Shown in pieces: positions 24,731 to 49,538 of a DNA stretch of 64,000 nt. The stretch is from the NCBI RefSeq assembly GCF_009848505.1, contig NZ_WWDL01000001.1, forward strand, positions 186,001 to 250,000, in the 5' to 3' direction. The notes under the pieces are model-generated. The model was not told the DNA's origin. It saw only the letters and a program-made list of their open reading frames with translations, and made no database searches. The translations under genes were made by a program, and so were the position numbers. Each line of letters begins with the position of its first letter. Position 1 is the stretch's first letter. The stretch is from Muricoccus harenae. GTDB lineage: Bacteria > Pseudomonadota > Alphaproteobacteria > Acetobacterales > Acetobacteraceae.

Positions 24731-27166
24731 ATGGACGCCAACTCAGACCCCGCCAAGACCGACACCCCTCGCACGGCCGCGCCCCGTGCCCAGGCACGCC
24801 GCGAGCAGGCGCGCCCGTCCGCCAGTCGGCCAGACGCGGGCGGCGAGGCGCCCCCGAAGGAGGTGGCGGCGCCCAAGGACGTGGTGGTCCGAGAAGCACC
24901 TGGCCGCGAAGTGCCTGGGCGAGAAGTGGCGACGAAGCAGCCGATCGATGCGTCGCTGCGGGGGGCCGCGCCCGATCCCGTCGTGCCCGCGCCGGCGGAG
25001 ACGGCGGATTCGCCCCTGAGCGATTCGAGCCGCTTCATCAACCGCGAGCTTTCCTGGCTGGCCTTCAACGAACGCGTGCTGGAGGAAGCCTCGAACCCCG
25101 CCCATCCGCTGCTCGAGCGGCTGCGTTTCGTTGCCATCTCCTCGGCGAATCTGGATGAGTTCTACTCGGTCCGCGTGGCCGGGCTGGTGGGGCAAGAGCG
25201 CGCGGCCATTGTCGCCGTCTCGCCGGACGGGCTGACGCCGGCGCAGCAGCTCGCCGCCATCCATGAACGCGCGGGGCGCCTCCTGGCGCAGCAGCAGCAG
25301 CGCTGGCTCGATCTGCGCGAGCAACTGGCCGAGGCGGGCATCCGCGTCAGCGATCCGTCTGAACTGTCCGAGTCCGACCGGGAGTGGCTGTCCAACTGGT
25401 TCATGGAGCGGGTCTTCCCGGTGCTGACGCCGCTGGCGATCGACCCGGCGCATCCCTTCCCCTTCCTGGCCAACCTCGCGCTCTGCCTGATCATGAAGCT
25501 GGTGCGGGAGGAGGATGGCGGCACCATGCGCGCCATCCTGCCGCTGCCGCCGCAGCTGGAGCGCTTCATCCGCCTGCCGCCGGGCGGCCCACGCGCGGAT
25601 GGCACGCGGGAGCCCGTGCGCTTCGTGCTGCTGGAGGAGGTGCTTCTCCTTAACCTCAAGCGCCTGTTTCCCGGCTTCATCCTGGCCGAGCGCGGGCTGT
25701 TCCGCCTGATCCGCGACACCGATGTCGAGTTCGAGGAGGAGGCGGAGGACCTGGTGCGCTCCTATGAGAGCGCGCTGAAGCGCCGCCGCCGCGGCCGCGC
25801 CATCCGCCTGACCGTTACCGACGACACGCCGGCCGACATGGTGGAGCTGGTGGCGGAGGAGCTGGACGCGCCGCGCGGGGAGATCTTCTCGCTGGAAGGA
25901 CTGCTGGGCCTTTCGGACCTGAAGCAGCTGATCCTCGACGACCGGCCTGACCTGCTCTTCAAGCCCTACACGCCGCGTTTTCCGGAACGCATCCTCGATT
26001 TCGGCGGCGACTGCTTCGCGGCAATCCGCGCGAAGGACATCGTCGTCCACCACCCGTATGAATCCTTCGACGTGGTGGTGCAGTTCCTGCGCCAGGCGGC
26101 GCGCGACCCGGCGGTGGTGGCGATCAAGCAGACGCTCTACCGCACCAGCCGCGACAGCCCGATCGCCCGTGCGCTGATCGAGGCAGCCGATGCCGGCAAG
26201 TCTGTCGCCGCCATGGTGGAGCTGAAGGCGCGCTTCGACGAGGAGCGCAACATCGCCCTCGCGCGCGAGCTGGAAGCCGCCGGCGTGCAGGTCGTCTATG
26301 GCTTCGTGGACCTGAAGACACATGCGAAGGTGTCGCTGGTCGTGCGCCGCGAAGGCGGCGTGCTGCGCTCCTACGCGCATTTCGGCACGGGCAACTATCA
26401 TCCCGTCACCGCGCGCATCTACACGGACCTGTCCTTCTTCACCGCCGATCCCGGGCTGACGCGCGATGCCGCGCGGTTGTTCAACTACATGACCGGCTAT
26501 GCGCGGCCGGAGACGATGGAGAGCCTGGCCTTCTCGCCGCTCACCATCCGCCCGGCGCTGATGGGGCTCATCGAGCAGGAGATCATCAACGCGCGGGAGG
26601 GACGGCCCAGCGGCATCTGGCTGAAGATGAACTCGCTGGTGGACGAGACACTGATCGACGCGCTCTATCGGGCGAGCCGGGCGGGGGTGAAGGTGGACTG
26701 CATCGTGCGCGGCATCTGCTGCCTGCGCCCCGGGGTGGAGGGCCTGTCCGAGAATATCCGGGTGAAGTCCATCGTCGGGCGCTTCCTGGAGCATTCGCGC
26801 ATCTGCGTCTTCGCCAATGGCCACCGCCTGCCCAGCCGCCGCGCCCGCGTGTTCATCAGCAGTGCGGACTGGATGGCGCGCAACATGGACTGGCGCGTGG
26901 AGACGTTGGTGCCGGTGGAGAACCCGACCGTGCATGCGCAGATCCTTGATCAGATCATGGTGGTGAACCTGAAGGACCGCGACCAGTCCTGGGAGCTGTA
27001 TCCGGACGGCAGCTACCGCCGCATCGAGCCGGGGGCGCATCCGCTCTCGGCGCATGAGTACTTCATGACCAATCCCTCCCTTTCCGGCCGGGGCAGCGCA
27101 TTGCATCGCGCGCCACGCACGCGCGGCCCGGTGCGCCGCCGGCCGGACCGCGTGGCACAGGACTGA
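24731..27166 (+). CDS. ppk: Polyphosphate kinase 1
   Basis: 811 residues, about 100 longer than typical PPK1 because of an Ala/Pro/Arg/Glu-rich N-terminal extension (1-97) containing [10 protein letters not shown]. The conserved part begins at [21 protein letters not shown]. Two phospholipase D-type histidines are visible: His531 ([16 protein letters not shown]), the autophosphorylated residue, and His688 ([13 protein letters not shown]). ATP-binding and head domains are complete to [12 protein letters not shown]. It makes polyphosphate from ATP reversibly, used for stress tolerance and phosphate storage. ppx follows after five bases, giving a synthesis/degradation pair. Confidence 0.96.
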
Positions 27167-27171
27167 GACGC

Positions 27172-28695
27172 TTGGATCTGCACAACGAAGCCGAATATGC
27201 CCCGCCGCGCGCCCATCCGCAGCGGCTGGGCGTCGTCGATCTCGGCTCCAATTCCGTCCGCCTCGTCGTCTTCGAAGGCCGCTGCCGCAACCCCGTCGCA
27301 ATCTTCAACGAGAAGGCCGTGCTCGGCCTCGGCCGGGGCCTGCAATCCACCGGCAAGCTCAATGCCGCGGCGGTGGAGGGCGCGCTCACCATCATGGGGC
27401 GGTACCTCGCCATTGCGCGCGCCATGGGCGCCGATCCGGTGGAGGTGCTGGCCACGGCCGCCATGCGGGACGCCGCGAACGGCCCCGCCTTCGCCGAGGC
27501 GCTGCGCGCCCGGATGCCCGGGGTGCCGCTCCGCATCCTGACCGGCGAGGAGGAGGCGGCGATGTCGGCGGAGGGGGTGCTGCTCGGCGTGCCCGGCGCG
27601 GACGGCATTCTCGGCGATATCGGCGGGGGCAGCCTGGAACTGGTCGATCTTTCGGCAGGGCGGCCGACCGAATCCGTCAGCCTGCCGCTCGGCGTCATCC
27701 GCCTTGCGGAGCGTTCGGGCAACGATCCGGCGCGCGCGCGGGCCATTGCGGAAGATGCGCTTTCGGCCGTGCCTTGGCTGCGGCGCGGGCTAGGGAGGGA
27801 CCTCTATCTCGTCGGCGGCGCCTGGCGCGCCCTGGCGAAGATCCACATTGCGCAGACCGGCTATCCGCTCTCCATCGTCCACCACTATGTGTTGCGGAAG
27901 GAGGAGGCGCGCGACCTCTGCGCCGCTGTCATCGCCGCCGGGGACCGACCGAACCGCCTGCCCGGCACGCCGGCCAAGCGCGTCGCGGACCTGCCCTATG
28001 CGGCCGTAGTGCTGCGCCGCCTGCTGCGCCTGACCGGGGCGCGGCGGGTCGTCTTCTCGGCGAATGGCCTGCGCGAGGGGTGGTACGCCCGGCACCTTCC
28101 CGATGTGGTTCGGACGCAGGATTCGCTGATGGCGGCGGGAACCGACCTGGCCGACCGCTTCGGCCGCGATCCCGACATGCCGCGGGCGCTGATGGACTGG
28201 ACCGCGCCGCTCTTTCCCGGCGAGGTCCCGGCCGAGGCCGCGCTGCGCCGCGCTGCCTGCCAGGTTTCCGACACTGGCAGCCACGACCATCCGGATTATC
28301 GCGCCGAGCAGGCTTTCCTGCGCGTGCTGCGCCAGCCCGGCGTGGGGCTGGACCACCATGCGCGCGCCTTCCTCGCCCTCGCCACCGCGCTCCGCTACGA
28401 CGCGGAGGATCCGGCGCTGCTTGCCCCCGCGCGCGCCCTGCTGGGTACCGCCGCGCAGCAGCGGGCGGAGCGGATCGGGGCGGCGCTGCGCCTGGCCTAT
28501 ACGCTATCGGGCGGCACGCCGGCGCTGCTGGCCGGCACGGCCCTCCGGCTGCGGGGCGGGCAGCTCGTCCTGCGGCTGGTGGAGGGCAGCGGCGTCTTCG
28601 CGGGCGAAAGCGTACGGCGCCGCGTGGACAGCCTGGCCACCGCCATGGGGCTGGAGGCCGCGGTGGAACTTACGCCCCAGGCCGCGGCGGGGTAG
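27172..28695 (+). CDS. ppx: Exopolyphosphatase / guanosine pentaphosphatase (Ppx/GppA)
   Basis: 507 residues from a TTG at 27172; an ATG-led alternative would cut into the ASKHA domain, so the TTG is preferred. GVVDLGSNSVRLVVFEG is the phosphate-1 loop, VLATAAMRDAANGPAF and RILTGEEEAAMSAEGVLLG follow, GILGDIGGGSLELVDL is the second phosphate loop and FSANGLREGWYAR a Ppx signature. A C-terminal HD-like helical domain spans about 320-500. It releases phosphate from polyphosphate chain ends and may hydrolyse pppGpp. Paired with ppk immediately upstream. Confidence 0.93.
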   Translation: MDLHNEAEYAPPRAHPQRLGVVDLGSNSVRLVVFEGRCRNPVAIFNEKAVLGLGRGLQSTGKLNAAAVEGALTIMGRYLAIARAMGADPVEVLATAAMRDAANGPAFAEALRARMPGVPLRILTGEEEAAMSAEGVLLGVPGADGILGDIGGGSLELVDLSAGRPTESVSLPLGVIRLAERSGNDPARARAIAEDALSAVPWLRRGLGRDLYLVGGAWRALAKIHIAQTGYPLSIVHHYVLRKEEARDLCAAVIAAGDRPNRLPGTPAKRVADLPYAAVVLRRLLRLTGARRVVFSANGLREGWYARHLPDVVRTQDSLMAAGTDLADRFGRDPDMPRALMDWTAPLFPGEVPAEAALRRAACQVSDTGSHDHPDYRAEQAFLRVLRQPGVGLDHHARAFLALATALRYDAEDPALLAPARALLGTAAQQRAERIGAALRLAYTLSGGTPALLAGTALRLRGGQLVLRLVEGSGVFAGESVRRRVDSLATAMGLEAAVELTPQAAAG

Positions 28696-32114: not shown

Positions 32115-35100
32115 ATGACCGCCGACCACCGTTCCTCGCCGATGCGCCCCATCGCCCTGTACCACCTGAATCCGCTGCTGCTCGGTCCGTTGTCGCGCTG
32201 GGCGGCGGAACTGGAGCGGATTGCGGCGCTCGGCTTCGGCGGCGTCTGCATGCCGCCGCCCCTGTCCCCCGGCCGTTCCGGCAACCTGCTGGAGGTGGCG
32301 GATCATGACCGCCCGCATCCGATGCTGGAGATGGGCACGGATGGCACCGGGGCGATCGCCACCCTCGCACGCGTCTGCCAGGCCGCGGGGCTGGAGCTGT
32401 GGCTGGACCTGCTGCCGCAGCATATGGCGGCGGAGGGCGCGCTGCCCGCCAGCCACCCGGAGTGGTTCCATCAGCCTGGTGCCAGCCTGCCCGACCCGCG
32501 CGCTACCGCCGCCCCGCTCGGGTTGGCACGGCTGGACCTGACGGCCGAGGGGCCGCTGGCCTTCTGGGAGGCGCGGCTGCGTGACTGGATGGCGGCGGGG
32601 GTGTCCGGCTTCCGCGCCCTCCGCCCGGGCGAGGTGCCGGTTCCCGCCTGGAGGCGGCTGATCGGCGCCGCCGGATCCGGCGCGGGCTTCATTGGCTGGA
32701 CCACGGGCATGGGCTGGGCCGAAGCAGCCGCGCTGCGCCAGGCGGGCTTCGGCTGGCTGGCCTCCTCCCTGGCCTGGTGGAACGGGCGCGATCCCTGGTT
32801 CGCGGCGGAGCGCGAGGCGCTGGGCGCGCCGCTCATCGGCTTCCCCGAGGTGCCCTTCGGCCAGCGCGCGGCGGTGGACGAGGGAGACGAGGCCGCGCGG
32901 GCGCGTGCCGCAGGCCTGTCCCTGCATCTGGCCGCGACGCTCTGCGATGCGCTGCTGGTACCACAGGGCTTCGAATACGGCGCCCGCCGCCCATCAGACC
33001 CCGCGCAGGACCGGCCGGGCGACTGGGCCTGGCTGCACGGGAATGCGCCCTACGACCTTTCCGGCGAGATCCGGGACGCGACCGCGCTGGTCAAGCGGCT
33101 TGCGCCCCTGTCGGGGCAGGCGATGCGGCCGCTGACCGGACCAGGGGGCACGGTGATGGCCATGCTGCGGGCCTCGGAGGATCCGCGCTTCGCGGAATCC
33201 GCCACTCTCGTCATCGCCAATCCGGACCGCCACGCCTCCGCCAGCCTGGCGCCCGAGGCGATCCTGCCGGCCATCGGCGGCGGCCCCGGCCCGTTCCTCA
33301 ACGCCGATGGCACCCAGACGCTGACGCCGGGCGTGCCTGTCCTGCTCTCGCCCGGAGAGGTGCGGGTGATGCAGGCCGGGCGCTCCAGCCCCATTCTCCG
33401 CCCCGCCGCCGCCCGCATGCCGCCGGAGCAGGGCGTGGTGATCCCGCGCATCGGCATCGAGGCGGTGACGCCCCTGGTGGAGGGCGGCCGCTTCCCGGCG
33501 AAGCGCATCATGGGCGAGGTGGTGACGGTGGAGGCCGATATCGTGGCCGACACCCATGCCACCTTCGGCGTGGCCCTGCTCTGGCGCCCTGTCGATGACA
33601 AGGCGTGGCGCGAGGTGCGGATGGAGCCGCTCGGCAATGACCGCTGGACCGCGAGTTTCCCGCTGGAGCGGATGGGCCGCCATGTCTTCGCGGTGGAGGC
33701 CTGGCTCGACGTTTTCGAGGGCTATCGCGACGAGCTGTCGAAGAAGCACGCCGCAGGCGTGCCGGTGACGCTGGAGCTGGAGGAGGGGCGGCGGCTGGTG
33801 GAGAAGGCCGCCAAGCGCATTGGCGCCACGAAGCGCCCGCTGACCCTGTTGGCGAAGTCGCTGGAGGGGGCGCCGGAATCGGAGCGGCTCGCGGTGCTGA
33901 TGTCGCCCGAGACGGCGCGGCTGATGGCCCTGGCCGATGACCGCCCGCATCGCGTGCGTCAGAACCCGCCCGGCGGCATCGAGGCCGAGCGCATCGCCGC
34001 CCGCTTCGCCTCTTGGTACGAGATCTTCCCGCGCAGCCAGTCGGGCGATCCCGCGCGCCACGGCACGCTGGAGGACGTGATCGGCCAGTTGCCGCGCGTG
34101 AAGGCGATGGGCTTTGACGTGCTGTATTTTCCCCCGATCCATCCGATCGGGCGGAAGAACCGCAAGGGGCCGAACAACACGCTGACGCCCGGCCCGGATG
34201 ATCCCGGCAGCCCCTATGCCATCGGTTCGGACGAGGGCGGGCATGACGCGCTGCACCCCGCGCTGGGCACCATGGCCGATTTCCACCGGTTGCGGGACGC
34301 AGCCCATGCGCATGGGCTGGAACTGGCGCTGGACTTCGCCATCCAGTGCTCGCCCGACCATCCCTGGCTGCGCAAGCACCCCGAATGGTTCGACTGGCGG
34401 CCCGACGGCACGATCAAATACGCCGAGAACCCGCCGAAGAAATATGAGGACATCGTCAACGTCGACTTCTACGCGCCGGGCGCCAAGCCTTCGCTCTGGG
34501 TGGCGCTCTACCAGACGGTGAAGTTCTGGGTGGAGCAGGGGGTGAAAACCTTCCGGGTGGACAACCCGCACACCAAGCCGCTTCCCTTCTGGGAATGGAT
34601 GATCGGCGAGATCCGCGCCGAGAATCCGGAGGTGCTGTTCCTCTCGGAAGCCTTCACGCGGCCGAAGGTGATGTACCGTCTGGCGAAGTGCGGCTTCAGC
34701 CAGTCCTACACCTACTTCACCTGGCGCGAGACGAAGGCGGAGATGGAGGAATACCTGACGGAGCTGTCGACCACTGCGCCACGCGAGTTCTTCCGCCCGC
34801 ATTTCTTCGTCAACACGCCGGACATCAACCCGCGCCACCTGCAGACCGGCGGGCGGCCGATGCATCTGGCGCGCGCTGCGCTGGCCGCGACGCTTTCGGG
34901 CCTCTGGGGCGTCTACCAGGGCTTCGAGCTGTGCGAGGCGACGCCGCTGCCGGGCAAGGAGGAGTATCTCGACAGCGAGAAGTACCAGATCCGCGCCTGG
35001 CCGGCCCGCCGGCCCGGCGACATCGTAGACGAGGTGACGCGGCTGAACATGATCCGCCGCGCCAACCCGGCGCTGCAGACGCATCTCGGTGTCACCTTCC

Positions 35101-35378
35101 TGACCGCCTGGAACGACAACATCCTGTATTTCGAGAAGGCAACGGAGGACCGCTCCAATGTCGTGCTGGTGGCGGTGAGCATGGATCCGTCCCGGGTGCA
35201 GGAGGCGGGATTCGAGCTGCCGCTCTGGCGCTGGGGCCTGCCCGACCAAGCCGGGCTGGATGCCGAGGACCTGATGCGCGGCCACCGCTTCGCCTTCCAC
35301 GGGAAGGGGCAGCACATGCGCCTGGACCCGGCCGACCTTCCCTTCGCCATCTGGCGCGTCCGCCCCTTCGGCGCCTGA
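32115..35378 (+). CDS. glgE: Alpha-1,4-glucan:maltose-1-phosphate maltosyltransferase GlgE with N-terminal pseudo-amylase half
   Basis: 1087 residues (ATG 32115; 32097 and 32001 are possible earlier starts). GlgE proper, about 435-1087, has [21 protein letters not shown], nucleophile Asp816 in [12 protein letters not shown], acid/base Glu845 in FLSEAFTRP and Asp903 in [11 protein letters not shown]: it extends alpha-glucan with maltose units from maltose 1-phosphate. Residues 1-430 look like a second, degenerate GH13 barrel: [10 protein letters not shown] keeps region I only partly, GVSGFRALR has Leu169 where the nucleophile Asp belongs, and [11 protein letters not shown] lacks the catalytic Glu. 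It is therefore probably structural or glucan-binding. First gene of the operon; treS follows after 17 bases. Confidence 0.92.
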
Positions 35379-35395
35379 CACAGTAAGAGATCGAC

Positions 35396-38649
<3,254 letters not shown>

Positions 38650-38653
<4 letters not shown>

Positions 38654-40806
38654 GCGACGCCCCCTTCGACGCTGCCCTGGACGCCATCGCCGAGGGCCGC
38701 CATGGCGATCCCTTCGCCGTGCTTGGCCGGCATGAAGGTATCCTCCGGACCTTCCAGCCCGGCGCTCTGGCTGTGGAGGCAGTGCCGCGCGGCGGCACGC
38801 CGGTGCCGCTGCGGCAGGTGCACCAGAATGGCCTGTTCGAGGGGGAGTTGCCTCCCGGCCCCTATACGCTGCGGATCACCTGGCTCGGCGGCGTGCAGGA
38901 GACGGAGGACCCCTATTCCTTCGGCCTGCTGCTGGGGGAACTGGACCTCTACCTCTTCGGCGAAGGGCGACACCGGGAGATGGGCCGCGTCTTCGGTGCC
39001 CATGCCATGGTGGTGGATGGCGTCGCCGGCGTGCGCTTCGCCGTCTGGGCGCCGAATGCGCGGCGCGTTTCCGTGGTGGGCGAGTTCAACTCCTGGGACG
39101 GGCGTCGCCACCCGATGCGGCTGCGCGGAAGCACGGGTGTGTGGGAGATATTCGTCCCGCGCATCAGCCCGGGAACGCGGTACAAATACGAAATCCTGGG
39201 CGCGCATGGCGGGGTGCTGCCGCTGAAGGCCGATCCGGTCGCCTGGGCCTCGGAGCTGGCGCCCGGCACCGCCTCCATCGTGGCCCAGCCCACGGCGTAT
39301 CCGTGGAATGACGCCGGTTGGATGGACCGCCGCGCTGCGCTGCAGGACACCAACGCGCCGATCGCGATCTACGAGGTGCATCCGGGCTCCTGGTGGCGGG
39401 CGGAGAATGGCCAGGCGCCTGATTGGGACGGGCTTGCGGCGCGGCTGATCCCCTATGTCACCGGCATGGGCTTTACCCATGTCGAGCTCCTGCCGATCAT
39501 GGAGCATCCCTTCGGCGGCTCCTGGGGCTACCAGCCGCTCGGGCTTTTCGCCCCCACCGCACGTTTCGGCACGCCGGAAGGTTTTTCCCGCTTCGTGGAC
39601 CACTGCCATGAGGCCGGGATCGGCGTGATCCTGGATTGGGTGCCGGCGCATTTCCCGTCCGACGCATATGGCCTTGCCCAGTTCGACGGCACGGCGCTCT
39701 ACGAGCATGCCGATCCGCGGGAGGGATTCCACAAGGATTGGAACACGCTGATCTACAACTTCGGCCGGACCGAGGTGCGCGGGTTCCTGATCGCCTCCGC
39801 GCTGCACTGGCTGGAGCATTATCACGTCGACGGGCTGCGCGTAGATGCGGTGGCGTCCATGCTCTACCGCGACTACTCCCGCAACCACGGCGAATGGGTG
39901 CCCAATATCCATGGCGGGCGCGAGAACCTGGAGGCGGTGACCTTCCTGAAGGAGCTGAACGAGGCGGTGCGGGCGCGCTGCCCCGGCGCCATCATGGTGG
40001 CGGAGGAAAGCACCGCCTGGCCCGGCGTCTCCAAGCCTGTTTCCGAAGGCGGGCTGGGCTTCCACTACAAGTGGAACATGGGCTGGATGCACGACACCCT
40101 GCACTACATGCAGGAGGATCCGATCAATCGGCGCTGGCACCACGGCCAGATGACCTTCGGCCTTGTCTACGCCTTCTCCGAGCATTTCATGCTGCCGCTT
40201 TCCCATGACGAGGTGGTGCACGGGAAGGGCTCGCTGCTCGGCAAGATGCCGGGCGATGCTTGGCAGAAGCGGGCGAATCTGCGGGCCTATCTCGCCTTCA
40301 TGTGGACCCATCCGGGCAAGAAGCTGCTCTTCATGGGCATTGAGCTGGGGCAGCCCACCGAGTGGAACCATGATTCACAGTTGCCCTGGCACTTGCTGGA
40401 CGATCCAGGACATCGGGGCATGCAGGCCTTGGTGCGGGACCTGAACCACGCCTATCGAGAACACCCCGCCCTGCATGTGAAGGATGCCGATCCCTCCGGC
40501 TTCGCCTGGGTGGTGGGGGATGACGCGGGCAACAGCGTCTATGCCTTCCTGCGAATGGGAGCGGATGGCACCCCGCCGGCGCTGGTGATCTGCAACCTCA
40601 CCCCGGTTCCGCGGGAGGACTATCGGGTCGGCGTGCCCTTCGGGGGATGGTGGAAGGAAATTTTCAACAGCGATGCAGTCGAGTATGGCGGTTCCGGCGT
40701 TGGGAACGGCGGTGGCGTGGAAGCACAGATCGAGGGTTCGCACGGGCAGCCGGCATCGCTCATCCTGACCCTGCCGCCGCTGGCGACGCTTATCTTTTCC
40801 CCGTAA
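38650..40806 (+). CDS. glgB: 1,4-alpha-glucan branching enzyme
   Basis: 718 residues. The N-terminal CBM48-type domains include [11 protein letters not shown] and [29 protein letters not shown]; the GH13 barrel has [26 protein letters not shown], nucleophile Asp399 in [18 protein letters not shown], acid/base Glu452 in [12 protein letters not shown] and [15 protein letters not shown]. It introduces alpha-1,6 branches into chains made by GlgE. Slightly shorter than E. coli GlgB (728). Within the C-terminal part an unusual Gly-rich stretch ([18 protein letters not shown]) is found. Translationally coupled to treS. Confidence 0.97.
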
Positions 40807-40821
40807 GGACCATCATACCCG

Positions 40822-42933
40822 ATGCCGACTGCGCCAGCCCGACTCGAAACCGGGAAGCCCTATCCGTTGGGCGCTACCTGGGACGGGTTGGGGGTGAATT
40901 TCGCTGTTTTCTCCGCCCATGCCGAGCGGATCGAGATTTGCCTCTTCAATGCCAATGGCCGGCGCGAGATTGCCCGCTACGACCTGCCGGAATGCACGGA
41001 TGAGGTATGGCACGGCTACCTGCCCGATGCCGGCCCCGGAACCGTCTATGGCTACCGCGCGCACGGCCCGTACGAGCCCACGAAGGGGCATCGCTTCAAC
41101 CCGACCAAGCTGCTGCTCGATCCCTATGCAAAGCAGCTGGTGGGTAACGTCACCTGGTCGGACGCGCTGTTCGGCTATCGCGTGGGCAACCAGCGCGCCG
41201 ACCTAACCATGGATCGCCGCGACAGCGCCGCCGCCATGCCTAAGGCGCTGGTGGTGGATGACCGCGTCTTCCAATGGGGCGGCGACCGGCGTCCGGAGCG
41301 GCCCTGGGGCGACACGATCATCTACGAGGCGCATCTGAAGGGCCTCACGAAGCAACACGAGGAAGTCCCCGGTCCCATCCGCGGCACCTTCCAGGCGCTG
41401 GGCCATCCCGCCGTGATCGATCACCTGCTGAAGATCGGCGTGACGGCGGTGGAGCTGCTGCCCATCCATGCCTTCCTGCAGGACCGCTTCCTCGTCGAGA
41501 AGGGCCTGACCAACTACTGGGGCTACTCCACCCTTTCCTTCTTCGCGCCCGAGCCGTCCTACCTCGCGACCAACAGCTTGAACGAGGTGCGCGCCGCGGT
41601 GCGGCGCCTGCACGATGCCGGGATAGAGGTCATCCTGGACGTGGTGTACAACCACACCTGCGAAGGATCGGAGATGGGCCCGACCCTCTCCTGGCGCGGC
41701 CTAGACCACGCCTCCTACTATCGTCTCGTCCAGGACAATCCGCGGCACTGCATCAACGACACGGGCACCGGCAACACGGTGAACATGTCGCATCCGCGGG
41801 TAATCCAGATGGTCATGGACAGCCTGCGCTACTACGTGGAGCAGTTCCATGTGGACGGCTTCCGCTTCGACCTGGGCAGCGTCCTCGGCCGCGAGACGAC
41901 GGGCTTCGATCCGGGATCGGGCTTCTTCGACGCGCTGCGGCAGGACCCGGTCCTGTCCCGAACGAAGCTCATCTCCGAACCCTGGGACATTGGCCCCGGC
42001 GGCTACCAGCTCGGCAACCATCCGCCGGGCTTCGCCGAGTGGAACGACAAGTTCCGCGATGGCGTGCGGCGCTTCTGGAAGGGTGACGAAGGGCTTCGCC
42101 CCGATCTCGCCGCCCGCCTCACGGGCTCGGCCGAGCTGTTCGACCGGCGCCGGCGCCAGCCCTGGGCGAGCGTGAACTACATCGCCTCCCATGACGGCAG
42201 CACGCTGCAGGACATCGTTTCCTACAACGAGCGCCATAACGAGGCGAATGGCGAGGACAATCGCGACGGACACGGCGAGAATTACAGCTACAACTGGGGT
42301 GTCGAAGGTGAGACGGATGACGAGGAGATCATCGACATCCGCGAGCGGCTGAAGCGCGCCATGCTCGCCACCGTCTTCTTCTCCGCGGGCACGCCCATGC
42401 TGCTGTCGGGCGATGAGATGAACCGCACCCAGCTTGGCAACAACAATGCCTATTGCCAGGACAACGAGATTTCCTGGGTGGACTGGAAGCGGGCTCAGTC
42501 GGAATCCGCGCAAACGCTGATCCGCTTTACCGGCCGCCTGGCGCGGCTGCGCCACCGGCTTTGCCCGCTGCGCCCGCCGCGCTTCCCGCATGGCCGGTCG
42601 GAGCCGGTGCCGGGCATCTCGGACACCCAGTGGTTCGGCCAGGACGGCGAGCCGCTGACGCCTGACGCCTGGGGCGATCCCGTGGCCAAGACCTTCGCCA
42701 TGCTGCGCGCGGACAACGCCGCGGAAGGCGGCGCCGATACGGTGCTGCTTCTTATCAACGCCGATAGCGCCGACCAAACCTTCGTCCTGCCGGGCGTTAC
42801 CCGGAACTGGACCATCCTGCTCGACAGCGCCGATCCGGATGCGGATGAGCGCATGCTGGATGAAGGCGAGGATACGGTGCAGGTGGGTTCCCGCTCCGTC
42901 GTGCTCCTCTGGAGCCGATTGGACCAGGCATGA
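40822..42933 (+). CDS. glgX: Glycogen debranching enzyme (isoamylase type)
   Basis: 703 residues. GKPYPLGATWDGLGVNFAVFSAHAERIEICLF is the CBM48 start; barrel motifs are VELLPIHAFLQDRFLVEKGLTNYWGY, VVYNHTCEGSE, nucleophile Asp350 in DGFRFDLGSVLGRE, acid/base Glu386 in LISEPWDIGPGGYQ and YIASHDGSTLQD. NERHNEANGEDNRDG is typical of GlgX/TreX. It cleaves alpha-1,6 branches, giving linear malto-oligosaccharides for TreY. Like TreX of archaea, it is encoded together with treY and treZ. Fifteen bases after glgB, with an AAGGA site; treZ follows after ten bases. Confidence 0.95.
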   Translation: MPTAPARLETGKPYPLGATWDGLGVNFAVFSAHAERIEICLFNANGRREIARYDLPECTDEVWHGYLPDAGPGTVYGYRAHGPYEPTKGHRFNPTKLLLDPYAKQLVGNVTWSDALFGYRVGNQRADLTMDRRDSAAAMPKALVVDDRVFQWGGDRRPERPWGDTIIYEAHLKGLTKQHEEVPGPIRGTFQALGHPAVIDHLLKIGVTAVELLPIHAFLQDRFLVEKGLTNYWGYSTLSFFAPEPSYLATNSLNEVRAAVRRLHDAGIEVILDVVYNHTCEGSEMGPTLSWRGLDHASYYRLVQDNPRHCINDTGTGNTVNMSHPRVIQMVMDSLRYYVEQFHVDGFRFDLGSVLGRETTGFDPGSGFFDALRQDPVLSRTKLISEPWDIGPGGYQLGNHPPGFAEWNDKFRDGVRRFWKGDEGLRPDLAARLTGSAELFDRRRRQPWASVNYIASHDGSTLQDIVSYNERHNEANGEDNRDGHGENYSYNWGVEGETDDEEIIDIRERLKRAMLATVFFSAGTPMLLSGDEMNRTQLGNNNAYCQDNEISWVDWKRAQSESAQTLIRFTGRLARLRHRLCPLRPPRFPHGRSEPVPGISDTQWFGQDGEPLTPDAWGDPVAKTFAMLRADNAAEGGADTVLLLINADSADQTFVLPGVTRNWTILLDSADPDADERMLDEGEDTVQVGSRSVVLLWSRLDQA

Positions 42934-42943
42934 GCACGGAAGG

Positions 42944-44707
42944 ATGACGGAGATGCTCTGGGGTCCGGTACTGCGTGAGAACGGTGTGACATTCCGGCTC
43001 TGGGCACCATCCAGCGAGGCGGTGTCGCTGGAGGTGGAGGGGATGGAGCCCATCCCCATGCAAGCCGTGGGGGAGGGGTGGTATGCCGCCGATGCCCCCG
43101 CAAAGCCCGGGGCGCGCTATCGCTTCCGCGTCTCAGCCGATCTGCTGGTGCCCGATCCCGCCGCCCGCGCGCAGGCGGAGGACGTGCATGGCGCCTCCGT
43201 GCTGATCGATCAAGGCAGCTACCAGTGGCGCAACACCGAATGGCGTGGGCGTCCCTGGCATGAGACGGTGCTCTATGAGCTGCATGTGGGCGCCTGCGGC
43301 GGCTATGCCGGGGTGCGCGCCCTGCTGCCGCGGCTACGCGACCTCGGCATCACCGCCGTGGAGCTGATGCCCCTGGCCGCGTTCCCCGGCGGCCGCAACT
43401 GGGGCTATGACGGCGTGCAGCCCTTCACCCCCGATCCGAGCTACGGCACGCCGGATGAGCTGAAGGCGCTGGTGGACGAGGCGCATGGGCTCGGCCTCTC
43501 CATTTTCCTCGACTGCGTCTTCAATCATTTCGGGCCGGACGGCGCCTATCTGCACGCCTATGCCAAGCCCTTCTTCGACGAAGGCATCCACACGCCCTGG
43601 GGTGCCGCGATCGACTTCAAGAAGCCGCCCGTGCGCGCCTATTTCGAGGAATGCGCGCTCATGTGGCTGCGCGACTACCGCATCGACGGGCTGCGGCTTG
43701 ATGCCGTGCATGCCATCGCCGACCAGTCCTGGCTGGACGTGCTGGCCCGCCGCATCCGCTCGGAGATCACGGGGCGCGAGGTTCACCTCGTGCTGGAGAA
43801 CGAGGGCAACACGGCGTCCAAGCTCACCCCCGGCCTCTATGACGCGCAGTGGAACGATGACGGGCACAACACCCTCCACCCGCTGCTGACCGGCGAGCGG
43901 GAGGGGTATTACGAGGACTTCGCCGATAACGGCGCGAAGAAGCTCGCGCGCGTGCTGGGCGAGGGCTTCCTGTTCCAGGGCGAGGAGATGCCGCATCTCC
44001 ACCGCCCGCGCGGCGAGCCTTCCGCACATCTGCCGCCCACCGCCTTCGTGCTCTTCCTGCAGAACCACGACCAGGTCGGCAACCGCGCCATGGGGGAGCG
44101 GCTGAACGCCCTGGCCGATCCCGCGGCGCTGCGTGCGGCGACGGCGCTGCTGCTGCTCTGCCCGCAGATCCCGATGCTTTTCATGGGCGAGGAATGGGGT
44201 GCCACCGTGCCGTTCCTGTTCTTCACCGGCTTCCGCGATCCGGAACTGGCCAAGGCGGTGCGCGAGGGGCGGCGCAAGGAATTCGCCCATTTCGCTGCCT
44301 TCCAGGACGAAGCCGCGCGCGAGCTCATCCCCGATCCGAATGACCCGGCCACCTTCGAACGCTCCCGCCCTGATTTCGCCGAGGCCGGGCGCCCGCCGCA
44401 CGACGCCATCCTCGCGCATCACAAGGCGTTGCTGGCGATCCGCCGTGCCGAGATCATCCCCCGGCTGCAGGGCGCCATGGCCCAGGGCGCCGAAGCCGTG
44501 GGCGAGGCCGCGGTGCTCGCGCGCTGGCGCATGGGGGATGGCGCGGTGCTGACCATCGCCACGAATCTCGGAGCCGGGCCAGCACAGGTTATGGCGCAAG
44601 GTGCCCGCATTCTGTTCGAGAGCGCTTCCGGCGCCGCCGCCTCCCTGGCCGCCGGCACCTTGCCGCCGCACACCACCATCGCCCTGCTGGATCCGACCAC
44701 ACGATGA
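42944..44707 (+). CDS. treZ: Malto-oligosyltrehalose trehalohydrolase
   Basis: 587 residues from ATG 42944; a second Met at 42953 has better spacing to GGAAGG and could be the true start. FRLWAPSSEAVSLEV is the N-terminal domain; YELHVGACGGYAGVRALLPRLRDLGITAVELMPLAAFPGGRNWGYDG, nucleophile Asp253 (DGLRLDAVHAIADQSW), acid/base Glu285 (LVLENEGNT) and LQNHDQVGNRAMGERL identify TreZ. It hydrolyses the bond next to the trehalose unit that TreY forms at the reducing end, liberating trehalose. The usual AEDDRN is ENEGN here. ATGA overlap with malQ. Confidence 0.95.
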   Translation: MTEMLWGPVLRENGVTFRLWAPSSEAVSLEVEGMEPIPMQAVGEGWYAADAPAKPGARYRFRVSADLLVPDPAARAQAEDVHGASVLIDQGSYQWRNTEWRGRPWHETVLYELHVGACGGYAGVRALLPRLRDLGITAVELMPLAAFPGGRNWGYDGVQPFTPDPSYGTPDELKALVDEAHGLGLSIFLDCVFNHFGPDGAYLHAYAKPFFDEGIHTPWGAAIDFKKPPVRAYFEECALMWLRDYRIDGLRLDAVHAIADQSWLDVLARRIRSEITGREVHLVLENEGNTASKLTPGLYDAQWNDDGHNTLHPLLTGEREGYYEDFADNGAKKLARVLGEGFLFQGEEMPHLHRPRGEPSAHLPPTAFVLFLQNHDQVGNRAMGERLNALADPAALRAATALLLLCPQIPMLFMGEEWGATVPFLFFTGFRDPELAKAVREGRRKEFAHFAAFQDEAARELIPDPNDPATFERSRPDFAEAGRPPHDAILAHHKALLAIRRAEIIPRLQGAMAQGAEAVGEAAVLARWRMGDGAVLTIATNLGAGPAQVMAQGARILFESASGAAASLAAGTLPPHTTIALLDPTTR

Positions 44708-46737
44708 GCGACCACGACCTCCGCGATCTTGCCCAGGCCGCCGGCATCGCGGTGGAATGGCGGGATGTGAACGGACGCGACAACACCGTCGGCCCGGATG
44801 CCATGCGGGCGATCCTGACGGCCCTGGAACTGCCGGCGGGCAGCGAGGCAGAGATCCGGGAAAGCGGCGAGAAACTGCGAGAAGGCGAGCGCGGCCTGCC
44901 ATCGCTGTGCACGGCCATCGCGGACCGCCCCGTCCTGCTCGGCCTGCCGGGAGAGCCCGGTTTCCGCCTGCGGCTGGAAAGTGGCGAAACGCGGGAGGGC
45001 CGTGCTTGGCAGCAGGACGGCCTCTGCACCCTGCCGCCCGTGAGCGAGGTAGGATACCACCGGCTGGAGATCGCCGGGCATGAGACGACCCTCGCCGTCT
45101 GCCCGCAACGCTGCCACGGCATCGCCCCGGGCACGCGGCCATGGGGGCTGGCGGTGCAACTCTACTCGCCGCGTCGCAAGGGCGATGGCGGGATCGGGGA
45201 TTTCACCGGCCTCTCGCAGCTGGCCGGCTCCGCGGCGCGGCATGGGGCGGATGCCATCGCCATCTCGCCGGTGCATGCGCAGTTCTCGGCCGATCTCGAG
45301 CGCTTCTCGCCCTACGCGCCCTCCTCGCGCCTGTTCCTCAACGTGCTGCATGCCGATCCCGCAGCACTCGGCGCGGATACGCTGCGCGCGGCGCTCGCCG
45401 AAACCGGGCTGGCCGATGAGTTCGCGCGGCTGGAGGCGCTGGACCTCGTGGATTGGCCCGCCGCCTCGCGGCTGCGGCTCCGCCTGTTCCGCGCCATCTT
45501 CGACCGTTTCGCCGGCACCGCCGAGTTCGACCGCTTCCGTGCCGAGGGTGGCGAGGCGCTGGAAAGCCATGCCCGCTTCGAGGCGCTGCATGCCGCCCTC
45601 TATGGCCGTGACCCGTCGCTCTGGCACTGGAGGAACTGGCCGGAGGAGTTCCGCACGCCCCAGGCACCCGGCGTCGCCGGCTTCGCGCGGGAGCATGAGC
45701 GCGAGGTGGCCTTCCACGCCTTCCTGCAATGGCTCGCGGATCGCGGGCTCGGCGCCGCTCAGGCGGGGTTCAAGGACGCAGGCGCGAAGATCGGGCTGAT
45801 CGCCGATCTCGCGGTGGGCACGGATGGCGGCGGCAGCCATGGCTGGTCGCGGCAGGACCAGATCCTGTCCGGCGTCGGCGTCGGCGCGCCGCCCGACATC
45901 TTCTCGCCGCTCGGCCAGTCCTGGGGCATCGCGGCCTTCTCGCCACGCGGGTTGCGGAAAGGCGGTTACGCTGCCTTCCTCGAGATGTTGCGCGCGGCCA
46001 TGCGCCATGCAGGCGGCGTGCGAATCGACCATGCGATGGGCCTGGCGCGCCTCTGGCTCGTGCCGGAGGGGCAGGATGCAACACAGGGCGCCTATCTTCA
46101 CTTCCCCGTGCAGGACATGCTGCGCCTCGTCGCGCTTGAATCGCGGCGGAACGAGGCCATCGTGGTAGGCGAGGACCTCGGCACCCTTCCCGAAGGCTTC
46201 CGCGACCGGCTGGATGAGACGGGCGTGATGGGCCTGCGCGTGCTGTATTTCGAGCAAGGAAAGGATGGCCGCTTCACCCCGCCCGCGCAGTGGTCTCCGG
46301 GCGCCGTGGCCGTCACCACCACCCATGACCTGCCCACCGTCGCGGGCTGGTGGAAGGGACGCGACATCGATTGGCGCGTGAAGCTCGGCCGCCTGGGTGA
46401 AGGCGCCGATGGCAGCGAGCAGCGGGAGGAGCGCGCGCGGGACCGCGCCAATCTCTGGGATGCCATGCGCGCCAGCGGCGCGGCGCAGGGCGACATGCTC
46501 GGTGAGGAACAGGGGGCCGAGGTCGCGACCGTCGCGGCGCGCCATGTCGCCTCCGCCGCCTGCGCCCTGGCTCTGCTCCCGCTGGAGGACGCGATGGCGC
46601 TGGAGGAGGCGCCGAACCTGCCCGGCACCACCGATGGCCATCCCAACTGGCGCCGCCGCCTGCCGGGCGAAGCCACCACCCTGCTAGACGCGCCCGATAC
46701 CGCGGCGCGCCTGCGCGCATTCTCCGAGGCCCGCTGA
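44704..46737 (+). CDS. malQ: 4-alpha-glucanotransferase (amylomaltase)
   Basis: 677 residues, GH77. The N-terminal helical/beta extension (1-135) resembles that of E. coli MalQ; the catalytic part begins at WGLAVQLYSPRRKGDGGIGDFTGL. Key residues: nucleophile Asp442 in VRIDHAMGLARLWLVPEG, Glu490 in VVGEDLGTLPEGF and Asp542 in TTHDLPTVAGWW. It rearranges malto-oligosaccharides, letting short chains left by GlgX/TreZ be rebuilt to lengths TreY or GlgB can use. Its TGA shares a base with the ATG of treY (TGATG), so translation is coupled on both sides. Confidence 0.94.
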   Translation: MSDHDLRDLAQAAGIAVEWRDVNGRDNTVGPDAMRAILTALELPAGSEAEIRESGEKLREGERGLPSLCTAIADRPVLLGLPGEPGFRLRLESGETREGRAWQQDGLCTLPPVSEVGYHRLEIAGHETTLAVCPQRCHGIAPGTRPWGLAVQLYSPRRKGDGGIGDFTGLSQLAGSAARHGADAIAISPVHAQFSADLERFSPYAPSSRLFLNVLHADPAALGADTLRAALAETGLADEFARLEALDLVDWPAASRLRLRLFRAIFDRFAGTAEFDRFRAEGGEALESHARFEALHAALYGRDPSLWHWRNWPEEFRTPQAPGVAGFAREHEREVAFHAFLQWLADRGLGAAQAGFKDAGAKIGLIADLAVGTDGGGSHGWSRQDQILSGVGVGAPPDIFSPLGQSWGIAAFSPRGLRKGGYAAFLEMLRAAMRHAGGVRIDHAMGLARLWLVPEGQDATQGAYLHFPVQDMLRLVALESRRNEAIVVGEDLGTLPEGFRDRLDETGVMGLRVLYFEQGKDGRFTPPAQWSPGAVAVTTTHDLPTVAGWWKGRDIDWRVKLGRLGEGADGSEQREERARDRANLWDAMRASGAAQGDMLGEEQGAEVATVAARHVASAACALALLPLEDAMALEEAPNLPGTTDGHPNWRRRLPGEATTLLDAPDTAARLRAFSEAR

Positions 46738-49538
46738 TGCCTGCCCCCGCCACGCCGCGCGCCACGGCCCGGCTCCAGTTCCACAAGGATTTCCCGCTGG
46801 ATGCGGCGGTGCCGCTGGTGCCGTATTTCCGGAAGCTCGGGATCAGCCATCTCTACGCGTCGCCGATCCTGAAGGCGCGCACCGGGTCGACGCATGGCTA
46901 CGACATCGTGGACCCGGAGCGCATCAACCCGGAACTGGGCGGGGAGGATGCGCTGCAGCGTCTCGTCGCCGCGTTGCGCGCCCATGACATGGGCCTCATC
47001 CTCGACATCGTGCCGAACCACATGGGCGTGGGCGGTTCCGATAACGGTTGGTGGCTGGACGTGCTGGAATGGGGGCGCCAGTCGCCCTTCGCGCATTTCT
47101 TCGACATCGACTGGAACCCGCCCGATCCTGCGCTGCAGGACCGGATGCTCGCGCCCTTCCTCGGCGGCCCCTATGGCACCGTGCTCGAATCCGGCGATCT
47201 CGCTCTGCATTTCGAGCCGGAGAGCGGCAAGGTCTACGCCCAGTACTTCGAGCACCGCTTCCCGCTCGCGCCGCGAAGCTATGCGACGCTGCTTTCGGCA
47301 ACGCATGAGGCGAAGCTGATCGGCATCGCCCAGATCTTCCGTTCCCTGGATCGCAGCGGCAACCGCGACGCCACGCGCGCCGCCGCGGGCCTCGCGCTCG
47401 ACATGCTGGCGCAGCACGCCGCCAGCAGCCTTGACGGCCGCGCGCAGATCGATGCGGTGATCGCGGCCCATGATCCGAAGGATGAGGCCGGACGCGCCCG
47501 GCTGCACGCGTTGCTGGAGGAACAGAACTACCGCCTCGCCTGGTGGCGCGCCGCGACGGATGAGATCAACTGGCGCCGCTTCTTCGACGTCACCTCCCTC
47601 GGTGGGCTGCAGGTGGAGCGGCCCAGCGTCTTCGAGGCGACGCATGCGCTCATCTTCCGTCTCTTCGCGGAAGGGCTGATCGACGGCGTGCGCGTGGACC
47701 ATGTGGACGGGCTTGCCGATCCGCGCGGCTATTGCCGCAAGCTGCGACGGCGCCTGCAGGCGTTGGAGGCGAAGCGCCCGGCCGATGCGCCGAAGGGCAA
47801 GCCGCTGCTACTGGTCGAAAAGATCCTTGCGCCGCATGAAAAGCTGCGCCGCGACTGGTTTGTGGACGGCACCACCGGCTACAACTTCATGGACGAAGTC
47901 TCCGCCGTCCTGCACGACCCCGCGGGCGCGGAGCCGCTGGCGGAAATCTGGCATCTCCAGACCGACCGTCCGCGCGACTTTGGCGAGGAGGCGCGCGAGG
48001 CCCGGCGCCAGATCCTGCGCTACAACTTGGCATCAGAACTGAACGGCACATCCGTCGCGCTGCAGCGCATCGCCATGCGCGACTTCGCGACGCGCGATTT
48101 CACTCTGACCGCCATCCGCCGCGCGCTGACCGAGGTGCTGGTGCATTTCCCGGCCTACCGCTCCTATCTCGGCATTGCCGGGCGCAGCGAGGCCGATCGG
48201 CGCCTGCTGGACTGGGCCATGGCAGGCGCGCGCCGCACGGTGCGCGCCACCGAGCGCCCGTTGCTGGAGCTGCTGGATTCCTGGCTCGGCGGCGATCCGC
48301 CGCGCAGCCTGCCGCATGCCCAACGGCGCGAGCGGCAGCGGGCCGCCGTACGCTTCCAGCAACTTTCCGCTCCCGTTGCCGCCAAATCCGTGGAGGACAC
48401 GGCCTTCTACCGCTACGGCCGCCTGATCTCGCGCAACGAGGTGGGCTCCGAGCCTTCGCATTTCGCCATCACCCCCGCCGCCTTCCATGCGACCTGCCGC
48501 GAGCGCGCGAAGTATTTCCCGCGCGAACTGCTGGCCACCGCCACCCATGATCACAAGCGCGGCGAGGACACGCGCGCGCGGCTCGCGGTGCTGTCCGAGC
48601 TTCCCGAGGAATGGGCGAACACCCTCACGCGCTGGACGCGGCTGAACGCGGTGCTGAAGAAGGAGGTGGATGGCGATCCCGCGCCGGACGCCGCCGACGA
48701 GATCATGCTGTACCAGTCATTGATCGGCGCCTGGCCGCTGGAGCTCGATCCGGCGGATGAGAAGGGCGTTGAGACGCTGATCGCCCGCCTCGCCGCCTGG
48801 CAGGAGAAGGCGTTGCGCGAGGGCAAACGCCGTTCCGAATGGGCGGTGCCGAACGAGCCCTATGAGGCGGCCTGCCGCGATTTCCTCACCGCCATCCTGG
48901 CCGCCGACCGCCCCTCCCGCCTGCGGGAGGAGGTGGCCAGCCTCGTGCAGCGCCTCTCCCCTGCCGGCGCGGCCAATGGCTTGGCCCAGACGCTGATCCG
49001 CTGTACCGCGCCAGGCATTCCAGACCTCTACCAGGGCACCGAGTTCTGGGACTTCTCACTGGTCGATCCCGATAACCGGCGCCCCGTGGACTTCGAGGCA
49101 CGCAAGGCAGCGCTGGAGGCAGGGGAGGCCCCGGCCGCCCTGCTGCCGCATTGGAAGGACGGGCGAGTGAAGGCCGCGATCCTCGCCCGTGCCCTGGCCC
49201 TGCGCACCCGGCTTCCGGCGCTATTCGCGGAGGGCGAGTACATCCCCCTGGAGGCGGAGGGGAAAATGGCGCCGCATATCCTCGCCTTCGCGCGGCGCCT
49301 GGGCGATGCCGCCAGCATCACCGCCGTCACCCGCCTGCCGGCGAAGCTGCTGGGGGAGGGAAACCAGCCCCTCCTCTCGCCCGAGGCCTGGGGCGACACC
49401 GCCCTGATCCTCCCACCTGCCTTGTCCGGGTTGTCCTTCCGCGATGCCCTCGGCGAAGGAAAGGCCATGGGCGGCGAGCGCCTGGCGGCGGCCAGACTGC
49501 TGGCGGGCCTGCCGGTGGCCCTTGTAGCGGCGGAATGA
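46737..49538 (+). CDS. treY: Malto-oligosyltrehalose synthase
   Basis: 933 residues, GH13 subfamily 26. TARLQFHKDFPLDAAVPLVPYFRKLGISHLYASPIL and GSTHGYDIVDPERINPELGG are TreY hallmarks; DIVPNHMGVG, nucleophile Asp321 (GVRVDHVDGLADPRGY), Glu361 (LLVEKILAPHEKL) and DTAFYRYGRLISRNEVG follow; the end shows GIPDLYQGTEFWDFSLVDPDNRRPVDFE. It converts the reducing-end bond of malto-oligosaccharides to a trehalose linkage. Last gene of the operon; only 35 bases separate it from the next gene and I see no terminator there, so read-through into the HWE kinase is possible. Confidence 0.96.
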   Translation: MPAPATPRATARLQFHKDFPLDAAVPLVPYFRKLGISHLYASPILKARTGSTHGYDIVDPERINPELGGEDALQRLVAALRAHDMGLILDIVPNHMGVGGSDNGWWLDVLEWGRQSPFAHFFDIDWNPPDPALQDRMLAPFLGGPYGTVLESGDLALHFEPESGKVYAQYFEHRFPLAPRSYATLLSATHEAKLIGIAQIFRSLDRSGNRDATRAAAGLALDMLAQHAASSLDGRAQIDAVIAAHDPKDEAGRARLHALLEEQNYRLAWWRAATDEINWRRFFDVTSLGGLQVERPSVFEATHALIFRLFAEGLIDGVRVDHVDGLADPRGYCRKLRRRLQALEAKRPADAPKGKPLLLVEKILAPHEKLRRDWFVDGTTGYNFMDEVSAVLHDPAGAEPLAEIWHLQTDRPRDFGEEAREARRQILRYNLASELNGTSVALQRIAMRDFATRDFTLTAIRRALTEVLVHFPAYRSYLGIAGRSEADRRLLDWAMAGARRTVRATERPLLELLDSWLGGDPPRSLPHAQRRERQRAAVRFQQLSAPVAAKSVEDTAFYRYGRLISRNEVGSEPSHFAITPAAFHATCRERAKYFPRELLATATHDHKRGEDTRARLAVLSELPEEWANTLTRWTRLNAVLKKEVDGDPAPDAADEIMLYQSLIGAWPLELDPADEKGVETLIARLAAWQEKALREGKRRSEWAVPNEPYEAACRDFLTAILAADRPSRLREEVASLVQRLSPAGAANGLAQTLIRCTAPGIPDLYQGTEFWDFSLVDPDNRRPVDFEARKAALEAGEAPAALLPHWKDGRVKAAILARALALRTRLPALFAEGEYIPLEAEGKMAPHILAFARRLGDAASITAVTRLPAKLLGEGNQPLLSPEAWGDTALILPPALSGLSFRDALGEGKAMGGERLAAARLLAGLPVALVAAE

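Follow-up and report, generated by a model that had tools for sequence, protein, structure and literature searches.

What does a second, altered glycoside hydrolase domain do at the front of a bacterial glycogen polymerase? This question is raised by a gene of Muricoccus harenae (Acetobacteraceae), located in a stretch of 64,000 nucleotides that was analysed as a whole (the window; assembly GCF_009848505.1, contig NZ_WWDL01000001.1, positions 186,001 to 250,000 of the forward strand), which encodes a GlgE of 1087 residues. GlgE is the polymerase of a major bacterial glycogen route, and the accessible part of PMC4526890 describes its acceptor binding only in part. An earlier note, made from the letters of the window alone, had regarded the N-terminal half of this protein as a pseudo-amylase; its gene start at 32115, its length of 1087 residues and its residue numbering (FRALR giving Leu169 and FIGWTTG giving Trp195) all hold. 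Our best explanation, for which we see an even chance, is that residues 1-425 were once a complete glycoside hydrolase family 13 (GH13) enzyme fused to GlgE and now form a non-catalytic module, docking the glucan acceptor in cis.

The N-terminal half and its replaced catalytic residues

For residues 1-435, no match at E 1 or better was found in Pfam and NCBIfam searches, and the best match among PDB sequences was weak (4gkl, E 0.028). The N-terminal half aligns with the GlgE barrel of the same protein, both in a blastp search against one sequence (27% over 188 columns, E 5e-9) and by hhalign (262 columns). The AlphaFold2 model of this half, built with 78 sequences (pLDDT 91.2, pTM 0.91), consists of a barrel of eight strands with a beta domain after it, which is the arrangement of a (beta/alpha)8 barrel and C-terminal beta domain seen in solved GH13 proteins. 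Among 1000 PDB chains compared, the best folds were the GlgEs 5cgm (Z 32.5) and 3zss (32.4) and the alpha-amylase 3dhu (32.4), and Foldseek agreed (4u2z, E 1.2e-21, TM 0.74). The GH13 plan that had been proposed for residues 1-430 is therefore supported by a predicted TIM barrel, and the alternative of no barrel is excluded.

The conserved regions of GH13 are named I to IV. A catalytic GH13 domain has an Asp nucleophile, a Glu acid/base and an Asp stabiliser, whereas the N-terminal half has Leu169, Trp195 and Phe248 at these positions. Leu169 had already been assigned as the nucleophile position and Trp195 or its neighbours as the acid/base position, and in the AlphaFold2 model Leu169 and Trp195 lie right after strands beta4 and beta5, as such an assignment demands. 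A replacement site that the earlier note left unnamed is region IV (FPEVPFGQR), with Pro247-Phe248. The window domain retains the region-I His103, and Ala168 precedes Leu169. As none of the three catalytic residues remains, we strongly infer a loss of GH13 chemistry, and with the GH13 fold, the replacement of all three triad residues and the conservation of the acid/base and region-IV replacements described below, the term pseudo-amylase is justified.

The remainder of the protein has the features of GlgE. With Pfam, the GlgE N/S domain (PF11896) was matched at residues 444-626 (E 2e-53, 181.7 bits against a cut-off of 25), an alpha-amylase domain (PF00128) at residues 637-764, and the GlgE C-terminal domain GLGE_C (PF21702) at residues 997-1081 (52.7 bits, cut-off 27). 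In the PDB sequence search, solved GlgEs (663-723 residues) aligned from residue 433-510 onward, with E down to 2e-167. Conservation of the GlgE triad (Table 1) was scored in 77 aligned full-length proteins. Judged by sequence, the part from residue ~437 to residue 1087 is an ordinary maltosyltransferase that has its GH13 catalytic triad.

Table 1. Coordinates of the long GlgE, its parts and its downstream neighbours within the window
Feature	Position	Strand	Basis
Long GlgE, 1087 aa	32115..35378	+	ATG at 32115, stop included; open reading frame list, Pfam, PDB matches
Residues 1-425, non-catalytic GH13 domain (predicted; barrel ~13-328, C-terminal beta domain ~330-425)	32115..33389	+	AlphaFold2 and fold matches
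Asp98, region I Asp, kept	32406..32408	+	111/116 non-intact, 12/12 intact domains
Leu169, nucleophile position	32619..32621	+	directly after strand beta4; motif FRALR
Trp195, acid/base position	32697..32699	+	directly after strand beta5; motif FIGWTTG
Trp221-Trp222, loop after beta6	32775..32780	+	kept in intact and Trp-type domains alike
Pro247-Phe248 replacing region-IV His-Asp	32853..32858	+	just after beta7; motif FPEVPFGQR
Linker joining both halves	33390..33443	+	low confidence at 436-445 in full-length model
GlgE maltosyltransferase part (N/S domain, catalytic barrel, C domain)	33444..35375	+	PF11896, PF00128, GLGE_C; PDB 4u2y, 3zss
Asp816, GlgE nucleophile position (FRVDN)	34560..34562	+	invariant 77/77
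Glu845, GlgE acid/base position (LSEAF)	34647..34649	+	invariant 77/77
Asp903, GlgE transition-state stabiliser position (NTPDI)	34821..34823	+	invariant 77/77
TreS-maltokinase fusion, next gene	35396..38653	+	TIGR02456, TIGR02457
GlgB, GlgX, TreZ, MalQ, TreY	38650..49538	+	family searches

Intact and converted relatives

A total of 145 N-domains were aligned, of which 128 were distinct after removing locus L171 and duplicates. L120 and L129 (6,273 and 6,419 bases) yielded no GlgE frame, and L100, a stretch of 100 filler bases, was set aside. The triad was intact in 12 of the 128 (with motifs such as FRCDAAY, AETLG and ESHDT), 20 keep at least one of the residues and 96 keep none, so that the loss of the catalytic residues is conserved across the lineage, in a sample that leans to the converted type. 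This leaning arises because the scan of named genomes used an alignment of Trp-type domains as its query, and the 116 non-intact domains out of 128 are therefore not a natural frequency. In a class sample of 385 genomes that was not picked by N-domain (41 with PF11896), 7 of the 22 long GlgEs were intact and 15 non-intact, with Trp at the acid/base position in 8 of the 15, five of these eight coming from two genera. As relatives of the same architecture have an intact triad, the domain was once an enzyme.

The replacements in the 116 non-intact domains follow a pattern. At the acid/base position, which is Glu in all 12 intact domains, they have Trp in 94, Tyr in 5, Gly in 4, Glu, Asp and Ser in 3 each and other residues in 4. 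Pro is found at the region-IV His position in 105 and Phe at the stabiliser position in 99, while the region-I His position is Arg in 75. The nucleophile position is more variable, being Leu in 60, Asp in 17, Val in 9, Glu in 7, Ile in 6 and others in fewer. When the 427 positions were ranked by majority frequency, Pro247 was 22nd, Phe248 31st and Trp195 49th, and position 169 was 166th. The shared changes are therefore those of the acid/base and region IV, while the nucleophile drifts; the conservation that the earlier note suggested checking was found for these two sites, but its Leu169 is not universal.

Other positions separate the two types or unite them. Of the 100 rows whose acid/base residue is aromatic, 0.97 have Glu at position 232, where all 12 intact domains have Gln; Arg129 is near-invariant (0.99) in the same 100 rows. 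Intact and aromatic-acid/base domains alike keep Asp98, Asp127, Arg167, Trp222, Glu245 and Glu287. The earlier note had also considered whether catalytic acids might be conserved elsewhere in this half. Asp98, Asp127, Glu245 and Glu287 are indeed conserved, but they are invariant in the 12 intact domains as well, and so no new catalytic role is required for them.

Intact, intermediate (Asp retained beside Trp and Pro-Phe) and fully converted forms coexist among the relatives. The plasmid copies of Azospirillum thermophilum and A. lipoferum 4B have an intact triad, and the corresponding residues of Caballeronia sp. SBC2 are Glu, Trp and Pro-Tyr. The copy of Cupriavidus sp. EM10, with Trp at the acid/base position, gaps at region IV and a frame of 821 aa, was excluded from all counts.

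Constraint on the N-terminal half

In 20 chosen pairs, all of the non-intact type, dN/dS of the N-terminal half was 0.045-0.317 (Nei-Gojobori), exceeding that of the GlgE half in 17 of the 20. The tree distance of the N-domain relative to the GlgE barrel had a median of 2.20 in 45 intact pairs versus 4.51 in 595 non-intact pairs, which are not independent. This indicates that the N-terminal half is maintained by purifying selection, though under relaxed constraint. An isolated broken gene can be ruled out by the stop-free frame, the purifying selection on the N-terminal half and the widespread homologues.

Information content was compared between 54 Trp-type representatives below 70% identity, which were selected for an aromatic acid/base residue, and the 12 intact domains. 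For mouth loops, helices, strands and short bottom loops it was 1.86, 1.56, 2.47 and 2.30 bits in the Trp type and 3.36, 2.59, 3.79 and 3.09 in the smaller intact set, which was higher in every class. Trp222 and Asp127 were invariant in the 54 representatives, and position 195 was Trp in 50 of these rows selected for an aromatic residue there. Barrel-mouth residues were among the most conserved, namely Trp222, Trp221, Ser218, Asp127, Arg129, Glu245, Phe248 and Glu287.

Distribution of the long GlgE

The length of 1087 residues, which the earlier note implied to be rare, is common. By open frame, the class sample has 22 long GlgEs (1010-1261 aa), 16 short ones (664-839) and 3 fragments, and the idea that a GlgE of this size is itself unusual was rejected on these numbers. 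In a sample of 200 Acetobacteraceae genomes, 88 had PF11896, and 82 of the 88 frames were at least 913 aa, 81 of them at least 986, based on length only. Three of the six shorter frames start less than 70 bases from the contig start, one has a partial domain match and two are 686 and 744 aa. The long GlgE is therefore usual in Acetobacteraceae. Across a phylum sample of 398 genomes, 63 had PF11896, with 19 frames of at least 1036 aa and one of 965.

Among the named genera that carry the N-domain are Roseomonas, Belnapia, Rhizobium, Neorhizobium, Lichenibacterium and Hydrocarboniphaga, and the nearest named relatives of the window domain are in Roseomonas and Pararoseomonas (71-81% N-domain identity). 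Plasmid records gave 159 matches to the N-domain, 145 of which covered at least 80% of the query, from Rhizobium, Azospirillum, Burkholderia, Caballeronia, Sinorhizobium, Cupriavidus, Bosea and Tistrella. A search of viral contigs gave none. Product names among the matches listed were of the GlgE type or 'maltotransferase domain-containing protein', mentioning neither the extra GH13 domain nor its catalytic state.

A few loci have unusual frames. In Rhizobium sp. G21 (L171), the GlgE frame is broken, with 570 aa open and the N-terminal half out of frame, perhaps by a sequencing error. In L181 and L216, from one genome (G402), an intact N-domain lies in its own 513-aa frame and the GlgE N/S match begins in another short frame just downstream, which could be either a split gene or a draft-genome frameshift.

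Evolutionary history

A tree built from 113 barrels placed all N-domains in one clade and all GlgE barrels in another (support 100 each). Of the 35 non-intact N-domains in the tree, 33 formed a single clade (99), and the GlgE barrels of 32 of these 33 proteins were also one clade (100), the locus of the 33rd being incomplete. This matching GlgE-barrel clade fits joint inheritance of the two fused halves. Outside the converted clade, L048 is sister to the intact L040 (100), and L044 adjoins the clade with a support of only 75. L048 (genome G073) and L040 (G205) have the same genus code, and in L048 the nucleophile Asp is changed to Asn and the region-I His segment is missing. The loss in L048 is firmly separate and apparently later, L044 may or may not be another, and one main loss with at least one separate loss would fit the tree. 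Some short GlgEs were nested among long ones with intact N-domains, with L038, L046 and L052 near L049, and L032 and L034 near L041 (supports 89-99), a pattern that would agree with loss of the entire domain.

The converted group extends beyond the class. It includes Gammaproteobacteria, with Trp at the acid/base position in a Sinobacteraceae metagenome-assembled genome (MAG) and Gly in Hydrocarboniphaga, and three loci of one family outside the class (f216; L187, L188 and L190, with Trp, Ala and Gly) branch together inside the converted clade. The catalytic-region motifs of L187 are nearly identical to those of the Betaproteobacterium Caballeronia sp. SBC2.

Either a duplication of GlgE's own barrel or a fused GH13_48-like amylase may have given rise to the N-domain. 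The free tree placed the N-domain with GlgE (96/85), where long branches meet, and neither the grouping of the N-domain with amylase (approximately unbiased (AU) test, p 0.335) nor that of amylase with GlgE (p 0.144) was rejected. By profile scores, intact domains favoured amylase (288 vs 201 for GlgE) and non-intact domains slightly favoured GlgE (136 vs 125 for amylase).

Operon context

The long GlgE is the first gene of a GlgE-pathway cluster at 32115-49538 of the window (Table 1). TreS-maltokinase (TreS-Mak), whether fused, split or detected in part, was found together with GlgB and GlgE at 30/30 loci of the same family, three further shorter loci being left out, at 6/6 other non-intact loci, 2/2 loci of family f216, 5/6 short-GlgE loci and 9/12 intact-N loci; the other three intact-N loci showed only GlgE, one of them on a 5.3-kb contig end. 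As the neighbours are much alike for short, intact-N and non-intact-N GlgEs, the operon does not explain the domain, and its context gives no special support to the idea that the domain docks TreS-Mak.

Glycogen synthase and phosphorylase are encoded on another contig (C48) of the same genome, and together with the GlgE-pathway cluster this shows two coexisting glycogen routes. The longest TreZ frame begins 95 bases inside the end of GlgX (42839-42933), and the true TreZ start is probably further downstream. Upstream of the cluster, at 24731-28695, the translations of two frames read like polyphosphate kinase and exopolyphosphatase, and in both Azospirillum plasmid copies of the long GlgE, a gene annotated as polyphosphate kinase lies directly upstream on the opposite strand.

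A proposed glucan-holding domain and its alternatives

In the explanation given an even chance above, a complete GH13 enzyme would have been fused to GlgE, with catalysis lost later in this lineage, and the N-domain would no longer cut or transfer glucan. Its rebuilt, aromatic-rich cleft, consisting of Trp195 and Phe248 with the kept Trp221 and Trp222, may hold an alpha-glucan chain, and the domain could keep the growing glucan near the maltosyltransferase, influencing processivity or chain length. A glucan-holding cleft is favoured by the conserved aromatic replacements together with the kept Trp221/222 and mouth residues. According to the accessible part of PMC4526890, GlgE has a low affinity for oligosaccharides and bound maltohexaose ~26 Å from the donor site, and with such a low-affinity acceptor surface, it is plausible that a further site for the acceptor was added in cis. 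A more extended proposal is that the conversion took place mainly once and anciently, with Trp for the acid/base and Pro-Phe for the stabiliser pair, giving an in-cis glucan-binding module that sets chain length or processivity in a large group of Proteobacteria; this is tentative, and we lean somewhat against it.

Several points weigh against glucan holding. Trp and Pro-Phe could equally be plugging the cleft, and the faster evolution of the N-terminal half in non-intact proteins (~4.5x that of the GlgE barrel vs 2.2x) points to relaxed constraint. Some rows carry Gly, Ser, Val, Asp or Ala in place of Trp195, the signature is less steady outside the class (Ala in L188, Gly in L190 and Hydrocarboniphaga) and the domain is shortened in several lineages (L048, L035 and L084). 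The full-length model (pTM 0.58) does not fix the placement of the two halves. In the accessible part of PMC11239784, some GH13_48 members are without catalytic residues, and the GH13_45 enzyme BmaN1 is active despite an aberrant triad, so missing textbook residues are no proof of inactivity.

The main rival to glucan holding is a filled-cleft scaffold, in which Trp195 and Pro247-Phe248 would fill the cleft and the domain would serve assembly, through contacts within a dimer or with TreS-maltokinase or GlgB, binding no sugar. The window residues at the four former active-site positions are all hydrophobic (Leu, Trp, Pro and Phe), GlgE is a homodimer in the accessible part of PMC4526890, and the possible partners are encoded beside GlgE at every same-family locus examined. 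However, short GlgEs without the domain stand in the same operon at five of six loci, which means that the partners do not need it, and many of the most conserved positions, including Trp221/222, ring the old mouth. We therefore regard a structural or protein-docking role as unlikely, while still the strongest competitor.

The relaxed constraint could also reflect slow decay, where the fused enzyme became useless and its remnant is eroding, being kept since in-frame loss is hard or because it helped folding. The faster evolution of non-intact N-terminal halves (4.5 vs 2.2), the shortened domains in L048, L035, L051, L054 and L084, and the nested short GlgEs, consistent with whole-domain losses, would all agree with this. 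Decay is nevertheless improbable, as dN/dS remains at 0.045-0.317 in the 20 pairs, the replacements are conserved (Trp in 94/116, Phe in 99/116), the Trp form extends from Alpha- to Beta- and Gammaproteobacteria, Caballeronia sp. SBC2 and the Sinobacteraceae MAG being among its carriers, and 82 of the 88 family frames are still long. A domain that is altered but still a real enzyme would have to act on glucan via other residues, for instance Glu245, Glu287, Asp98 or Glu232, the latter having replaced Gln, or via the Asp kept at the nucleophile position in 17/116. Conserved acidic residues do remain, the change of Gln232 to Glu is a lineage-specific switch and BmaN1 is a published case of such activity (accessible part of PMC11239784). 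Yet Asp98, Asp127, Glu245 and Glu287 are conserved to the same degree in intact enzymes, and both the acid/base and the stabiliser are hydrophobic in the window domain, making this a very improbable explanation.

The long protein is already in databases under GlgE-type names; the enzyme family is known, and so is this type of pseudo-enzyme. Among the matches listed from a partial open library with few subscription papers, none describes a GlgE whose GH13 half is inactivated, nor do the accessible parts of the pathway reviews and surveys PMC11046441 and PMC6686919. The combination of GlgE with an inactivated GH13 half and a conserved replacement signature, which we could not find described, is apparently new. 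Beyond the earlier note, it was found that the long GlgE is common, that the N-domain of some relatives is intact and that the replacement signature is conserved. With both intact and converted homologues in similar operons, the question of how GlgE holds its acceptor becomes directly testable. If the glucan-holding explanation is true, the surviving intact, intermediate and converted forms would be a readable series from enzyme to lectin. As a caution, annotation by length or GH13 content may hide the enzyme status of a domain.

Comparison with known systems

Solved GlgEs match the C-terminal 650 residues of the window protein (E down to 2e-167), with the triad kept, and the fold of the N-terminal half is also GlgE-like (Z 32.5); they differ in being 663-723 residues long, without the extra GH13 half. 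Long-form proteobacterial GlgEs do have the extra half, which was matched in records of Rhizobium, Azospirillum, Burkholderia, Caballeronia and others; it is intact in Azospirillum thermophilum and A. lipoferum 4B.

The motifs of subfamily GH13_48 include a Cys before the nucleophile and L-[DN] at the end of conserved sequence region V (CSR-V). Such a Cys (FRCD) is present in six of the seven intact N-domains of the class sample, whereas the window domain is without the triad and has Ala before Leu169. Among PDB sequences, the closest to an intact N-domain were 4gkl (AmyB of Thermotoga neapolitana, a maltogenic amylase of the GH13_48 type, 75 bits) and the alpha-amylase 3dhu (67 bits), with GlgE behind them at 40 bits. 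In the accessible part of PMC11239784, the Cys before the nucleophile is a feature shared by GH13_48 and GH13_49.

For a GH13 fold with another role, the heavy chains rBAT and 4F2hc are known, which serve transporters according to the accessible part of PMC11239784, and rBAT (6li9) was at rank 39 in the Foldseek list. As membrane transporter subunits, they have a different role. In plants, the accessible part of PMC12510319 describes ISA2 as a GH13 protein of alpha-glucan synthesis that lost its catalytic residues early and was kept. Like ISA2, the window domain would be a selected, non-catalytic GH13 in glucan synthesis, the analogy being functional only; ISA2 forms its own subunit within a debranching complex, whereas the window domain is fused to a polymerase. 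ISA2 is the closest working analogy, if loosely comparable, and with the long GlgE, the non-catalytic isoamylase of plants would gain a bacterial counterpart in fused form.

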